Shown: positions 5,875-11,147 of the stretch, piece by piece
Layout: each line of letters opens with the position of its first letter
How positions within the stretch are numbered: position 1 is the first letter of the stretch
From: Planctomycetota bacterium
GTDB lineage: Bacteria > Planctomycetota > Phycisphaerae > WQYP01
Direction of reading: 5' to 3'
NCBI GenBank assembly: GCA_021808105.1
Contig: JAKBCC010000019.1
Span: forward strand, 1 to 42,818
Length of the DNA: 42,818 nucleotides
Notes under the pieces: model-generated
Seen by the model: the letters and a program-made list of their open reading frames with translations, nothing else
Told to the model about the DNA's origin: nothing
Databases searched by the model: none
Position numbers and translations under genes: made by a program

Positions 5875-7347
5875 TTACCGCGCTACCCACGCCGGAGCGA
5901 ACGCTGTGGCCAACTGCTCAATGGGATTGTACGCCAGTAACGCCAAGCCATTTAAAATACCCGCAGCCGTAAGCAGCAATAACACGCCGCCGGCCAGGTG
6001 CCGCTTCTTTCGGCGTTTATCCGTTACGGCCAATGGCTGGTTTATTTCCGGCATACCCATCATCGCATAACTCCCGACGCGCATCACCGCACCGCTGCCC
6101 ATTAAAATCCCCAGCGCATTAATACCTAAAACCGCCAGACCCAGTACAGAGCCGGGGCCGGCAGCTGAAAACGACTCAATACGGGCAATGCTTCCCAGCG
6201 TCGGCGGAAGGCCGCCAAGCGACAATAGCGCCAGCAGAAAAAGCAGCGCATGCAAAGGCTTTACACGGGCAAAGGACGGCCACTGCTGATTTAATCCCAG
6301 GGATTTTCGGCCGATAATTCCAACCGATGAGCCTAATGCGATCCCGACGGTAAGCGCATACAACAGCACGCATCCAACCAGATCCGCAAGCGCCACATGC
6401 CTTAACGAAATCCCGGCGGCCAGCGTCACAAAGGTGCAGGCCATGAATATCCCGATGATGTTTCCTAAAATATCCGGGACCACAAACTGGAATAAAGCTT
6501 TAACCCCATAAGCGCCAACCGCCAAAGCACCCAGACAAATTACCGTCAGTGTGACCACGTTGGCGGCGGCGGGCGCGATGAAAATTAAGCGGTGCATAAT
6601 TCGCAGGTAGGGTGCTGCTGATCCAATGGCGGGTACCACCAGCAAAAACAAAACGACGGGGGCAGGCGCATCACCAGCGGCGCTACCGTACCACCAGATC
6701 AGCGGAAGGCTGCCGGCCCAGAATAACATGGGGGTCATAAATAAAATCACCAGCACGCCGCCCCACGCTGACGCACTGTGCGGCGTGGTGATAAGCGCTG
6801 GGCCAATCTGCAGGCCAAAACATCCCCTGGTCAGGGCCGCCAAGGCTAAAAGCATTACTAATAAGCTGGCCAGCAATGCCACGGTTGTAAACGCCAGGTG
6901 ATCGCCTGCTCTAAAGGTAGAGGGCATGGCCAGAGGAAGCGAAGCCAGCAGCATCCCCCCCGCCATAACCGGCAAACTGTGTAATGCCGGCATTAAGCTC
7001 CAGCCCACTGTACTTAGGGTAATCAGCAGGCAGAATCGCAAATCTCCCTGCCCGCTATAACTTCGCAAGCGCCGGGTCATAACCGCCGCCGTCGCGATAA
7101 GCAATATCACCGTCGTAAAAACCCACCCCATCGGATCCACAGCCAGCCAGGGCGGTACAGAGGCCGATTGCGCGGTGCCAAACGTCAGGGGATAAAACCG
7201 CAACTGCATTAAGCTTGCAATCACCATGCCCGTAAAACAGATGATGACACTGCCCGGGCGCGAAGCGCCAGAGCGCATCAGGGAGGTAAGTGCCAGAAAC
7301 CCAACGGTAACCAGCAGCACAATCTGCGGGGCCAATATGGCAAGCAC
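5875..7347 (-). CDS. nuoN: NuoN-like proton-antiporter subunit, divergent
   Basis: Polytopic inner-membrane protein of 490 residues (about 14 hydrophobic segments) placed last in an L-M-N order, which identifies it as the NuoN-like member of complex I. Family-like stretches are LAVDPMGWVF (residues 68-77), ASLPLAMP (135-142) and GDAPAPVVLFL (225-235). Residues needed for proton transfer in NuoN are not found by eye: the TM5 Glu of the E-L-x-S-L-P motif falls in GMLLASLPL with no acidic residue, and the TM7 Lys of F-K-x-x-x-x-P falls at Trp210 (FWAGSLP). The Lys of the KY motif is also missing. The GTG start at 7347 has no close ribosome site, so the N-terminus is uncertain. Either a divergent, weakly or non-pumping subunit, or a relative recruited to another ion-handling complex. 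Confidence 0.75.
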   Translation of the reverse strand: MLAILAPQIVLLVTVGFLALTSLMRSGASRPGSVIICFTGMVIASLMQLRFYPLTFGTAQSASVPPWLAVDPMGWVFTTVILLIATAAVMTRRLRSYSGQGDLRFCLLITLSTVGWSLMPALHSLPVMAGGMLLASLPLAMPSTFRAGDHLAFTTVALLASLLVMLLALAALTRGCFGLQIGPALITTPHSASAWGGVLVILFMTPMLFWAGSLPLIWWYGSAAGDAPAPVVLFLLVVPAIGSAAPYLRIMHRLIFIAPAAANVVTLTVICLGALAVGAYGVKALFQFVVPDILGNIIGIFMACTFVTLAAGISLRHVALADLVGCVLLYALTVGIALGSSVGIIGRKSLGLNQQWPSFARVKPLHALLFLLALLSLGGLPPTLGSIARIESFSAAGPGSVLGLAVLGINALGILMGSGAVMRVGSYAMMGMPEINQPLAVTDKRRKKRHLAGGVLLLLTAAGILNGLALLAYNPIEQLATAFAPAWVAR

Positions 7348-7448
7348 GTGGTATGTCAGGCGTGGCTCTCCTGTGCGATAGTTTCAATTGAGTTCATAGT
7401 TAAAATCCCAGTTTTATGTAATGGCAGCCTGCCGACGGCTCTCACCGC

Positions 7449-9026
7449 TCAATGCAGCACGCCGCTAAGCGCACGCGCCAAAGCCTTGAGCACCGGCGCA
7501 ACAGGATCCAGCACCAGAAGTGTCGGTAAAATACCTCCGGCAAGTAAGGCGATGATCAAAGGCAGAAACACCAGTCGCTCGCGCAGAGACAAGGCATGAA
7601 AATGCTGATGCTCCGGGCGCCCCGGTCCGAAAAACAGCCGCTCAATGGTCCACAACAGCACCGCCGCCATCAGCACCATGGCCAGACACATCGTCAACGC
7701 CGCCGGTAACAGGGCATTCCCCATCAGCACATGCTGTGTGACACTTGCCGATGCGGCACGGAACATTCCCAATATGGTCAGCAAGTCCCCGCCAAAGACC
7801 GCCAACCCCGGCAACGCCAGCGCCGACATAAAACCAATCATCGAAAAAATAAATAAATCCGGTATGACCTGGGCCAGGCCGCCCAGGCGCGGCAAGTCCC
7901 GATGGCTGGCCCGCACTTCAATAATATGACTGGTCCACAGCATGGCCATGGTCGTTACCGCCGCCCCCAGACTCAACAAAAATCCGCCATTAAGGCCCGT
8001 TATATTTCCCGCAGCAACCCCCAGAAGAATAAAGCCGCCCTGCCCGATCAGCCAGTAAGCAATGACGCGGCGGAAATCACTTTGCGCCAGGCCGCACAGG
8101 GCCGCATAGACCACGCCGGCAGCGCCCAAAATGGCCAGCGTATTGCGCCAGATCGCCAACTGCATGGGAAACAACGCCACCACAAACCGATCCAGGGCAT
8201 AACCGGACAGAAGAAACTGCGAACAGATAATCATCATCGCCGACGGAGCTGCGGATTCAGCCAGGGCGTCGGGCAACCAGAAATGTACCCCCGCCGTCCC
8301 CAGGCGAATTCCCAGCGCCAACATCAGCAGCCAGAACGCCGCCGTCGTCCACGGATTGGCCGGCCCTAAAGCCAGTCTTAATTGCGGATCCTGGGCGATA
8401 CGGGCAAAGCTTAGCGTGCCCTGGGTAAAGCCTCCAACACCGCGGGTAGAAAGACCTATTAACAAACACGCGCCCAACATCGCTGCTGAGCCGGTAATCC
8501 AGAACAATGCCAGTTTCAGAGCCGCCGGCCTTCGCCGCGCCCCTCCCCATACACCGATCAGCAGAAAACAGGGGAACAGTGAAAGTGTGGTAAGCAGATA
8601 AAACAGGAACAAATCCATGCTCGCTGCCGCCCCCACCACGCATCCTTCCAGCAGCAGCATGACCACATAATAAGCCTTCACCTGGGCATTGACTCCGTAG
8701 CTGGCCAGAATAGAGATCAGACTTATGCCGCAGATCAACAGGACTGTCACCATGGATAAGCCGTCCACACCCACATGGTAGTGAACATTCAAATCCCGAA
8801 ACCACATCACGTTTTGCTGCAGCTGCGCCCGGCCGCTGAATTGCGGCGACCAGTTAAACAGCCGCGCCGCCGCCAGAGCTATCAGCATATTGCCCGCGCT
8901 GACGGCCACAGCGCTGTAGCGAATCAGTCGCAGACGTCCGATGGGCAAAATGCCCAGAACAAATGCACCGATTAACGGCAGGACCATCAGCCACGTCAGA
9001 ATTGAACTGTAAAAAAATGGTTTCAA
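7449..9026 (-). CDS. nuoM: NuoM-like proton-antiporter subunit, divergent
   Basis: 525-residue membrane protein. The block DLFLFYLLTTLSLFP with LIGVWGGARRR, and VHFWLPDALAESAAPS, are unmistakable NuoM signatures, as is the N-terminal VGVDGLSM. Key residues differ from those required for pumping in E. coli NuoM: the TM5 Glu144 position is Thr147, Lys234 is Arg241, Lys265 is Leu272, the His in the central L-x-H-G motif is Ala, and Glu407 appears as Asp (FGGDLL). The TTG start at 9026 is preceded by AAAGG at a good distance. It sits 57 bases after nuoL and 101 before nuoN on the same strand and is likely co-transcribed. Family membership is secure; function as a proton pump is doubtful. Confidence 0.85.
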   Translation of the reverse strand: MKPFFYSSILTWLMVLPLIGAFVLGILPIGRLRLIRYSAVAVSAGNMLIALAAARLFNWSPQFSGRAQLQQNVMWFRDLNVHYHVGVDGLSMVTVLLICGISLISILASYGVNAQVKAYYVVMLLLEGCVVGAAASMDLFLFYLLTTLSLFPCFLLIGVWGGARRRPAALKLALFWITGSAAMLGACLLIGLSTRGVGGFTQGTLSFARIAQDPQLRLALGPANPWTTAAFWLLMLALGIRLGTAGVHFWLPDALAESAAPSAMMIICSQFLLSGYALDRFVVALFPMQLAIWRNTLAILGAAGVVYAALCGLAQSDFRRVIAYWLIGQGGFILLGVAAGNITGLNGGFLLSLGAAVTTMAMLWTSHIIEVRASHRDLPRLGGLAQVIPDLFIFSMIGFMSALALPGLAVFGGDLLTILGMFRAASASVTQHVLMGNALLPAALTMCLAMVLMAAVLLWTIERLFFGPGRPEHQHFHALSLRERLVFLPLIIALLAGGILPTLLVLDPVAPVLKALARALSGVLH

Positions 9027-9083
9027 GTCTACCTTTCAAACTTGCCGCAAAATTAACCTGTCCGCGATCCGCCGATATCGGGG

Positions 9084-11147
9084 TTACGCACCTATCCATG
9101 CCGCCAGCAACGCTATAACACTTACCATGGCCAGGGCCAGCAGGACGTAGACCACCGGCCGGTTGCGCTTCAATGTTCTTAGTTGTCCTGCGGCCGTCCC
9201 CGCCGGACGTTCCAGGCGTTCCCAGAAGGAAACATTTAATCCGGTTTCCGCAGCGGCTACAAGAATGCTTGCCAACCGGATCACAATGGCCAACGTCACC
9301 AGCAGCCATTCCACCACCCACCGATCCAGGAACGCCGCCGCCTTTCCAATGACCTGTGCGGGAAAGCCCAACAGGACAAAAAACAGATCCGCAAAATACA
9401 TATCGGCCGCCAGCCACCGATATACCAGGTTCGGTCCCGGGCGCCGGCGCAGCGTATCGGCCTTTTGCAATCCACCGGCGTAGACCAATGCCACCACCGC
9501 CAGCGCCGCAGGCCCCAGCCATTCCAGGGGCCGCAATAACATCCCGTCAAAACCTGCCGCAATGTGCCGCACATGTCGGACTCCCGGCATCCCAATGACA
9601 TGGGCAAATAAACCGCTTAGATCCGCAAACGGTTGCCCCGCAATAATGACTCCCACCAGTAGAATCAGCAAGGGAAATGTCTGCACCGCCAGTTCACCCT
9701 CTTCCAGCGGTTGGCCGCGGGCTTTGCCGGCAAAAATCAGATACCACCATCGGGCCAAGGCCAGTGCCGTCACATAGCACATGATCAGCGGCACCCAATA
9801 TAAGCACTTCCCGAATTCACCAATGCCCCAGCCGTAGGCATGAACATGCAGCAAACCCTGCCGCATAATTTCCGTCATTCCCGACAACCCCACGCCCGCG
9901 CCGCCCAGCACCAGCATGCCACTGACAATGGCTGTGATGGGCAGGCGTCGCCACACGCCGCCAAGCTGCGTTATATCACGCTGACCGTCGCTGGCGCGTA
10001 AAACCGTTCCAGCAGCCAGAAATAGTCCGCAATAAATCAGCGCGGTCAACAGCCCACCCAGCAACCCTGCCGCTTCGTTGCCGGAACCGAAAAATACAAA
10101 ATTCAACCCCGTCTGGGCAATTAACAGCCACGCCACCGTGCGTTTAATATCTTTCTGCACCAGAGCAATACATGATCCGCAAAATTGCGTTGTGGCCCCC
10201 ATCATCGCTACAGTCAACGCGGCGTTGAGATTCAGCAGCCCCGCGCAATGTGCCAAAAGCAACAGGCCGCCCCCGGCTATCAGCGTTCCAGAGAGCATGG
10301 CGTTTGCCCCCGATAAGCCGGTGATGGTTTCCGGCACCCAGGTATGCAGGGGAAACTGCCCGGATTTCGCCAGAGCCGCAGCCACCAGGCACATACCACC
10401 CAGACTCCGCCAGGTTAAACCCGGGAACCAGCCTTTCAGTGCGGCAATGGGTTGCTGCATTCCCCCGGCAACTCCAGACATCCGCGACGGGTCATGTCCA
10501 AAGAGAATCTGATGGTCCAATGGCGTTCCATGCAAAGCAAAAATGGTAATCCCGATCAGAAATAAAGCATCGGCAATCGCGTGCGGCAGCAAAATACGCC
10601 GGGCAATGGGCCGCTCGGGCGGTCGATTCGCCCACTGCAACATGCTGCAGGCCGTATAAATGGCCAGTTCCAGCAGCAGATACATCTGCATCACATTGAT
10701 CGATAATGCTGCCAAGGCCAGGAAAAATGCGGTCAGAGTGCCCAGCGCAAAATAATCCGGACGAATCGCCTTGTACTTGAGCATTCCCAGCGTGTGCAGT
10801 TGGGCTAACAGCACAATGAACAGAAACAACATGAAAAAAACCAGATTCAGCGATCCGCTGGAAATGCCCATCGCAATCATCGGTGTGCCGCCCGTGCCCG
10901 CGACGCCGGGCAGAGGTAACCAGGTAAATAAAAGACTGTGCGTCTGTGATTGCCCCGGTACTCCGGCATGCGCCAGGCGGCGGATAATGGCCGCCAGACC
11001 CGCCGCCAGGGCTGCCAGTAATGAAATAATGCTGATATAAGCGGCAGTGTGGGCCGATCGGCGCGCCAAGCCGGCCATAACGATAAAGCCACCCAGCAAA
11101 AAGCCGACCGCCAGCAACAAAATAGTATTCGCGTATATCAACCGCAA
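9084..11147 (-). CDS. nuoL: NuoL-like proton-antiporter subunit, partly divergent
   Basis: First gene of an isolated L-M-N group; 687 residues, the only one of the three long enough to include the C-terminal lateral helix and final TM segment of NuoL. It keeps the TM5 Glu160 (MYLLLELAIY), the TM7 Lys261 (ALAKSGQFPLHTWVPE) and the ALVQKDIKRTVAW block. It lacks the His of the A-L-I-H-A-A segment (Ser286), the H-x-x-x-H-A-x-F-K signature of TM10-11 (here GLLGGLLTALIYCGLF) and the Lys of S-K-D-E-I-L (Met424). The frame holds no ATG between the preceding stop and residue 24, so TTG at 11147 is the likely start, but no convincing ribosome site is present. A respiratory role would require the other nuo genes to lie elsewhere in the genome. 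Confidence 0.85.
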   Translation of the reverse strand: MRLIYANTILLLAVGFLLGGFIVMAGLARRSAHTAAYISIISLLAALAAGLAAIIRRLAHAGVPGQSQTHSLLFTWLPLPGVAGTGGTPMIAMGISSGSLNLVFFMLFLFIVLLAQLHTLGMLKYKAIRPDYFALGTLTAFFLALAALSINVMQMYLLLELAIYTACSMLQWANRPPERPIARRILLPHAIADALFLIGITIFALHGTPLDHQILFGHDPSRMSGVAGGMQQPIAALKGWFPGLTWRSLGGMCLVAAALAKSGQFPLHTWVPETITGLSGANAMLSGTLIAGGGLLLLAHCAGLLNLNAALTVAMMGATTQFCGSCIALVQKDIKRTVAWLLIAQTGLNFVFFGSGNEAAGLLGGLLTALIYCGLFLAAGTVLRASDGQRDITQLGGVWRRLPITAIVSGMLVLGGAGVGLSGMTEIMRQGLLHVHAYGWGIGEFGKCLYWVPLIMCYVTALALARWWYLIFAGKARGQPLEEGELAVQTFPLLILLVGVIIAGQPFADLSGLFAHVIGMPGVRHVRHIAAGFDGMLLRPLEWLGPAALAVVALVYAGGLQKADTLRRRPGPNLVYRWLAADMYFADLFFVLLGFPAQVIGKAAAFLDRWVVEWLLVTLAIVIRLASILVAAAETGLNVSFWERLERPAGTAAGQLRTLKRNRPVVYVLLALAMVSVIALLAAWIGA

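Follow-up and report, generated by a model that had tools for sequence, protein, structure and literature searches.

The window described here is the complete stretch of 42,818 nucleotides analysed from contig JAKBCC010000019.1 of a planctomycete genome (assembly GCA_021808105.1, class Phycisphaerae). Three consecutive open reading frames (ORFs) on its minus strand form an operon-like nuoL-nuoM-nuoN trio, and their products, designated here L2, M2 and N2, resemble the antiporter-like subunits of complex I (Table 1). The genes of L2 and M2 are separated by 57 bp. The ORF listing of the window reproduced exactly the trio coordinates reported in a first-pass annotation of this DNA, together with its observation that nuoA-K are missing alongside, and no further nuo gene was found in the window besides the trio. 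With Pfam and NCBIfam profiles, M2 reached 290 bits against TIGR01972 (NuoM), which is over the curated cut-off; L2 matched the NuoL profile at 1e-44, yet far under the cut-off, and N2 gave a weak match to the NuoN profile (6e-9). Mrp profiles scored far lower on the trio than those of NuoM and NuoL. The identity of N2 as a NuoN is weakly indicated by these low profile scores and by gene order.

Table 1. Genes of the nuoL-nuoM-nuoN trio and features of their products in the window
Feature	Positions	Strand	Basis
L2, NuoL-like antiporter subunit, 687 aa	9084-11147	-	ORF, NuoL profile
M2, NuoM-like antiporter subunit, 525 aa	7449-9026	-	ORF, NuoM profile
N2, strongly diverged NuoN-like subunit, 490 aa	5875-7347	-	ORF, weak NuoN profile, gene order
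L2 predicted lateral (traverse) helix, residues 583-643	9219-9401	-	AlphaFold2 model, Foldseek match
L2 motif RRxPGxNLxYRW, about residues 567-578, just ahead of the lateral helix	9414-9446	-	
M2 motif WTIERxFxGxxRPExxHFxxLxxxER, residues 459-483, region of transmembrane helices 13-14	7578-7652	-	

The L, M and N proteins of the window genome and its relatives were aligned with those of E. coli K-12 (nuoLMN from NC_000913), and the known E. coli positions were verified letter by letter before the residues were mapped. In comparison with E. coli NuoM, M2 shows the replacements E144T, K234R, K265L, H322Q, H348A and E407D. The first-pass annotation had named the changes at positions 144, 234, 265 and 407, all of which stand, as well as the loss of a "central His"; the latter (H348A) is real but not diagnostic, because the canonical NuoM of the same genome has Ser at this position, and in the alignment the diagnostic histidine change of M2 is H322 to Gln. 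N2 carries E133L, K217W, K247A and K395R, with a gap or Thr at K158 depending on the alignment, so that all five mapped key residues are replaced; the missing glutamate of transmembrane helix (TM) 5 and the tryptophan in place of the TM7 lysine, both noted earlier, are the first two of these. L2 retains E144, D178 and K229 (E160, the TM5 Glu, and K261, the TM7 Lys, in its own numbering) and has lost the others (H254S, H334G, H338T, K342Y, K399M and D400R), and the mapping agrees with the earlier view that Glu160 and Lys261 are kept and that the HxxxHAxFK signature and the SKDEIL lysine are gone. A structure-guided realignment, run as a check, did not recover the charged residues at shifted positions. 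The canonical L, M and N proteins of the window genome retain E-D-K-H-H-H-K-K-D, E-K-K-H-E and E-K-K-K-K, respectively, and the trio does not possess the complete set of TM5 Glu, TM7 Lys, TM8 Lys or His and TM12 Lys or Glu.

The same losses were found throughout the clade. None of 22 M2 proteins has the TM5 Glu or the TM8 Lys, and in all 22 the TM7 Lys is replaced by Arg (Arg241, invariant) and H322 by Gln. The TM8 His and the TM12 Lys are absent from all 23 L2 proteins, as are H338 and K342; in most genera the TM7 residue of L2 is Leu, Phe or other, and its TM5, TM8 and TM12 positions are hydrophobic. The relay residues are kept in the 21-24 outgroup proteins, with the exception of one transitional genome considered below. 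In a single, not exhaustive, GTDB-wide pattern scan of 84,980 species, M2-type proteins without relay residues came from metagenome-assembled genomes (MAGs) of Planctomycetota only, several of them labelled Phycisphaerae or Phycisphaerales, and nearly all M proteins of other taxa retained E-K-K-E.

The minimum considered necessary in each antiporter-like subunit comprises one residue at TM12, a central one at TM8 and the TM5/TM7 pair, and current views of complex I employ a full axis through N, M and L (PMC10212512). L2, M2 and N2 all lack the TM8 residue, and in most of them the TM5 or TM12 site is missing as well; a TM5/TM7-TM8-TM12 relay therefore cannot run. From the aligned sequences we strongly infer that the trio would be unable to translocate protons via the complex I relay. 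Two published observations call for caution: in one sodium assay, the NuoL substitutions E144Q and K229A made little difference (PMC4938563), and E. coli HycC functions with an altered relay (PMC9474812).

L2 orthologues with 67-86% identity are present in all seven other genomes of the window's genus, and almost every other member of the same Phycisphaerae family has a homologue with about 28-39% identity. N2 is present in 8/8 genomes of the window's genus and in no other family member; its profile matched this genus only, apart from a weak match to the NuoN of the transitional genome G015. Other genera have only an L2-M2 pair, its genes 19-116 bp apart, and nothing NuoN-like was found within 4 kb; this pair has been retained across several genera that have diverged to about 26-45% identity. 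Within the window's genus the trio stays together and its flanks vary (fucI-mrp-lpd in several genomes, other genes in G001, G003 and G005); elsewhere, by eye, mutM lies upstream in genera g4 and g11 and fabF in g2. One MAG, G027, contains two L2 types (L049 and L065), one grouping with G011 and the other with its own genus, which means either that the second copy is genuine or that the bin is mixed.

The window genome (3.86 Mb, 216 contigs) contains seven antiporter-like genes, of which three form the trio, three make up an L-M-N set with full charges on contig C153 and one, on C44, encodes a DabB. A complete second, normal set, for which a search had been proposed at first pass, is thus present, and most L2-bearing genomes of the family also carry canonical NuoL. 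The earlier suggestion that loss in all three subunits points to changed ion coupling is supported. As far as searched, there is a single NuoH (C56) and a single NuoD-E-F-G cluster (C188), with both NuoH and NuoD canonical, and the window genome yielded no core genes (H, J, K, A, B, C, D, I) of the trio's own lineage, either linked to it or elsewhere. Contig C189 (L171, 1-713) holds NuoJ, NuoK and the first part of another canonical NuoL, which is 83% identical over 108 aa to the NuoL on C153 (L038, 13326-15560); G002 likewise has two canonical L-M-N sets (C49 and C146), and the window's genus seems to possess a duplicated J-K-L-M-N block besides the relay-less trio.

In maximum likelihood trees, the relay-less M2 proteins form one clade and the L2 proteins another, each with 100/100 support. 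M2 is joined with 100/100 support to the 11-subunit-type M of two family members, apart from the 14-subunit proteins; the same two members adjoin the L2 clade in the L tree, which is midpoint-rooted and in which some long branches meet. Outside the family, M2 is most closely related to the NuoM proteins of B-C-D-H-I-J-K-L-M-N operons without E, F and G, and such 11-subunit-type operons were found in SAR324, Lambdaproteobacteria, Neomarinimicrobiota and other Planctomycetota. N2 scores 40.7 bits with 11-subunit-type N and 16 with the canonical N of its genome. Taken together, these comparisons make it very probable that the trio, elsewhere the L-M pair, derives from a complex I of 11 subunits (A and BCDHIJKLMN, without EFG) and has lost the canonical relay. 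In terms of sequence affinity, an arm of this derivation is found beside an ordinary 14-subunit complex I. An origin from a complex with two NuoM subunits was considered and rejected, as the inspected outside relatives have one L, M and N per operon.

Two family members differ in what remains of the core. G013, whose L, M and N are fully charged, possesses an additional NuoC-D of 11-subunit type, a second NuoH and, next to its L, a NuoJ. A second NuoH or NuoD of 11-subunit type was not seen in G015, the M of which keeps E144 and shows K234R, K265T, H322A and E407Q, with K247P and K395R in its N and K342S and K399R in its L (L183, L184). Residue loss accompanies core loss, since the genome with core parts is charged and the one without such NuoH or NuoD is half-lost; G015 may serve as a useful intermediate for mutational work.

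All four genomes of genus g4 (G010, G019, G024 and G026, each 92-93% complete) carry L2-M2, and in none of them was a canonical NuoL, H or D, a canonical-looking N or M, or an H or D core of canonical or 11-subunit type found. NuoF was not found in three of the four; the match in G010 falls in a frame of 607 aa that resembles the longer, additional NuoF-like copies seen in other genomes, and judging from its length alone it is probably a hydrogenase-type subunit. NuoJ-K on a small contig of G024 (C30, L178) were considered as a sign of complex I in g4 and rejected as a likely contaminant from a relative of the window's genus, because the flanking gene is 82% identical to the window genome's copy, whereas G024's own copy stands at 41%, like those of other g4 genomes. 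The g4 genomes carry Ehr-type complexes with H-, CD- and B-like genes and antiporter-like subunits of their own. CxxC motifs are entirely missing from the CD-like large subunits that were inspected. Many family members have one or two Ehr-type complexes with NuoH-, NuoCD- and NuoB-like proteins and several antiporter-like subunits (L160-L169, L173-L175); their NuoCD-like subunit lacks CxxC too, and they therefore probably contain no NiFe site. Several Ehr loci are preceded by a short gene that by eye resembles a helix-turn-helix (excisionase-like) protein. No second NuoH or NuoD was found in the window genome, which therefore shows no Ehr complex. As g4 is without complex I and the window genome without an Ehr complex, no core is common to L2-M2 across the family. 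Incompleteness of the MAGs is a caveat for these absences, lessened by the agreement of four g4 genomes, and L2-M2 is likely to be independent of complex I.

The ratio of nonsynonymous to synonymous substitution rates (dN/dS, Nei-Gojobori method, close pairs) was 0.05-0.21 for M2, 0.07-0.23 for L2, 0.18-0.31 for N2 and 0.04-0.12 for fucI; in one pair the canonical L1, M1 and N1 gave 0.21-0.27, not lower than L2 and M2 of the same pair. The trio genes are under purifying selection, and no internal stop codon was present in any matched L2 frame. The AlphaFold2 model of L2 (predicted local distance difference test, pLDDT, 76.7; predicted template modelling score 0.78) contains a beta-hairpin, a long lateral helix and a final TM helix at residues 664-686 (TM16), with low confidence toward the end of the lateral helix (residues 636-662 under 50). 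The best PDB folds found with Foldseek were NuoL/ND5, with template modelling scores of about 0.60-0.75 by query length over about 680 columns, and L2 is predicted to retain the NuoL fold with its lateral helix. The N2 model (pLDDT 42) is too poor for use. New invariants, absent in outgroups, were found in M2 (R241, W325, Q329, W364, E462, P471, H475 and others) and in L2 (W451, W467, W543, G571, N573 and L574); E462, P471 and H475 of M2 and G571, N573 and L574 of L2 belong to the two motifs of Table 1 and are invariant in the relay-less clade only. Given the topology of NuoL and NuoM, several of the new invariants presumably lie in cytoplasmic loops, and both motifs are expected on the cytoplasmic side.

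We favour the following scheme, which as a whole has in our opinion about an even chance of being correct: L2-M2 is a repurposed surviving arm of a lost 11-subunit complex I and no longer pumps protons in the way known from complex I. By sequence, the family lost the core of this enzyme and its arm genes remained together; N then disappeared outside the window's genus, and the proton-relay residues were replaced. In complex I the lateral helix of NuoL ties L to M. L2 and M2 may still pack as an L-M pair held by this helix, which is plausible because the helix and the L fold are kept in the prediction, and the pair could form a non-translocating membrane platform, the newly conserved motifs of which would bind a partner encoded elsewhere. 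It is somewhat less than evenly probable that two or three ion-dead antiporter-like subunits make up a free-standing membrane complex of complex I ancestry, with no tie to complex I itself or to any redox core and with a new non-transport function. Of the two possibilities suggested at first pass, a slow-pumping complex I is disfavoured, as g4 retains L2-M2 without complex I. The other, a separate membrane complex made of the LMN module, is the better fit once amended in three respects: the conserved unit is the L-M pair, N belongs to one genus and the origin lies in the 11-subunit enzyme; its separateness is what we infer.

Several points weigh against this scheme. No neighbour or partner gene beside L2-M2 is common to different genera, and the platform or docking role, which the conserved motifs suggest, is somewhat less than evenly probable. 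Nearly every L2-M2 genome has complex I or an Ehr-type complex, and docking on whichever core is present is possible. In the window's genus, both the TM5 Glu and the TM7 Lys mostly persist in L2, and Arg occupies TM7 and Asp TM12 of M2; with these residues some altered ion movement is possible there. A crude count of charges in hydrophobic stretches revealed no clear drop and is too crude to discriminate; L2 and N2 are fast-evolving.

Cyanobacterial ndhF3-ndhD3 is an L-M gene pair isolated from its core, and NdhD3/D4-NdhF3/F4 swap into cyanobacterial NDH-1. By analogy, L2-M2(-N2) could be an alternative distal arm, low-pumping or differently regulated, that swaps onto the canonical core or onto an Ehr-type core where complex I is missing. 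The lateral helix predicted in L2 and the presence of at least one possible core in nearly every genome agree with such a role, as does the requirement of NdhD4/NdhF4 for assembly of the CupB complex (PMC5853218). We nevertheless regard it as unlikely: with g4 lacking complex I and the window genome lacking Ehr-type NuoH and NuoD, no single core serves all, L2 and M2 derive from another complex than the core they would join, and the central axis would be interrupted by an M2 that has neither the TM5 Glu nor the TM8 Lys. A transporter or channel of changed specificity, for another ion or a small solute, acting via the TM7 Arg of M2 and, in the window's genus, Glu160 and Lys261 of L2, is similarly improbable. 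It draws on Arg241, invariant in 22/22 M2 proteins, on the newly invariant W325, Q329 and W364, and on HycC, which has no TM7 Lys (Leu208) and several relay mutants of which show no significant loss of H2 production (PMC9474812). Against it, in most genera L2 has Leu, Phe or another residue at TM7 and is hydrophobic at TM5, TM8 and TM12, and these positions vary from genus to genus, which would not be expected of a new binding site. Finally, stepwise residue loss, the absence of N from most genera and the fast evolution of N2 might be explained by a functionless remnant of the lost 11-subunit complex I on its way to disappearance. This is very unlikely in view of the uninterrupted L2 frames, dN/dS well under 1 in every tested pair, the rise of new invariants and the persistence of the pair across several genera at about 26-45% identity.

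Among the known systems, the 11-subunit complex I of SAR324, Lambdaproteobacteria and Neomarinimicrobiota shares with L2-M2(-N2) the lineage of L and M, and probably N, by tree and best matches, but the latter is a pair or trio only, without core genes and relay residues. Canonical 14-subunit NuoL, M and N are alike in fold, lateral helix and L-M-N gene order; L2 and M2 differ from them as separate clades that have lost residues and occur also in genomes without complex I. NdhF3-NdhD3 and NdhF4-NdhD4 (NDH-1MS) resemble L2-M2 as an unlinked L-M pair duplicated beside a normal set, whereas L2-M2 has lost its relay residues and in g4 there is no complex I core of the kind that those pairs need. 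No CupA or CupB gene was seen beside L2-M2 when neighbours were inspected across genera, an inspection made without a Cup profile search. HycC of E. coli formate hydrogenlyase also has an altered relay (TM7 Lys to Leu), but it retains the TM5 Glu as well as the residues of TM8 and TM11, and it is attached to a hydrogenase. MrpA and MrpD of Mrp are likewise two antiporter-like subunits without a redox core; by eye, among listed ORFs of at least 90 aa and with no Mrp profile search of the neighbours, no run of short membrane ORFs that could be small Mrp subunits was noticed beside L2-M2.

No description of an orphan relay-less NuoLM pair was found in the literature searched, the reach of which mostly excludes subscription journals. 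The parts are known, and what is new is their combination: a conserved, relay-less, core-less pair that also occurs in genomes without complex I. It represents a natural dissection of complex I, in a lineage whose arm outlived the engine, and the graded series from charged subunits with a core, through half-lost ones without it, to the pair with complete loss distinguishes the residues linked to coupling from the parts of L and M that serve packing only. L2-M2 also offers a ready-made, probably non-pumping L-M pair for gauging the structural share of the arm. Should L2-M2 have a function of its own, antiporter-like proteins would gain a role outside ion transport, one not found described in the searched literature.

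DabAB resembles L2-M2(-N2) in having a NuoL-like subunit without a complex I core, but the trio has no adjacent DabA (DUF2309), and L2-M2(-N2) consists of two or three antiporter-like subunits. The window genome has a separate DabA/DabB pair on C44 (L039, 3290-7402), a DabA-DabB-like inorganic carbon transporter pair in a planctomycete, which is faced by a LysR-type regulator, as recognized by eye and by length.

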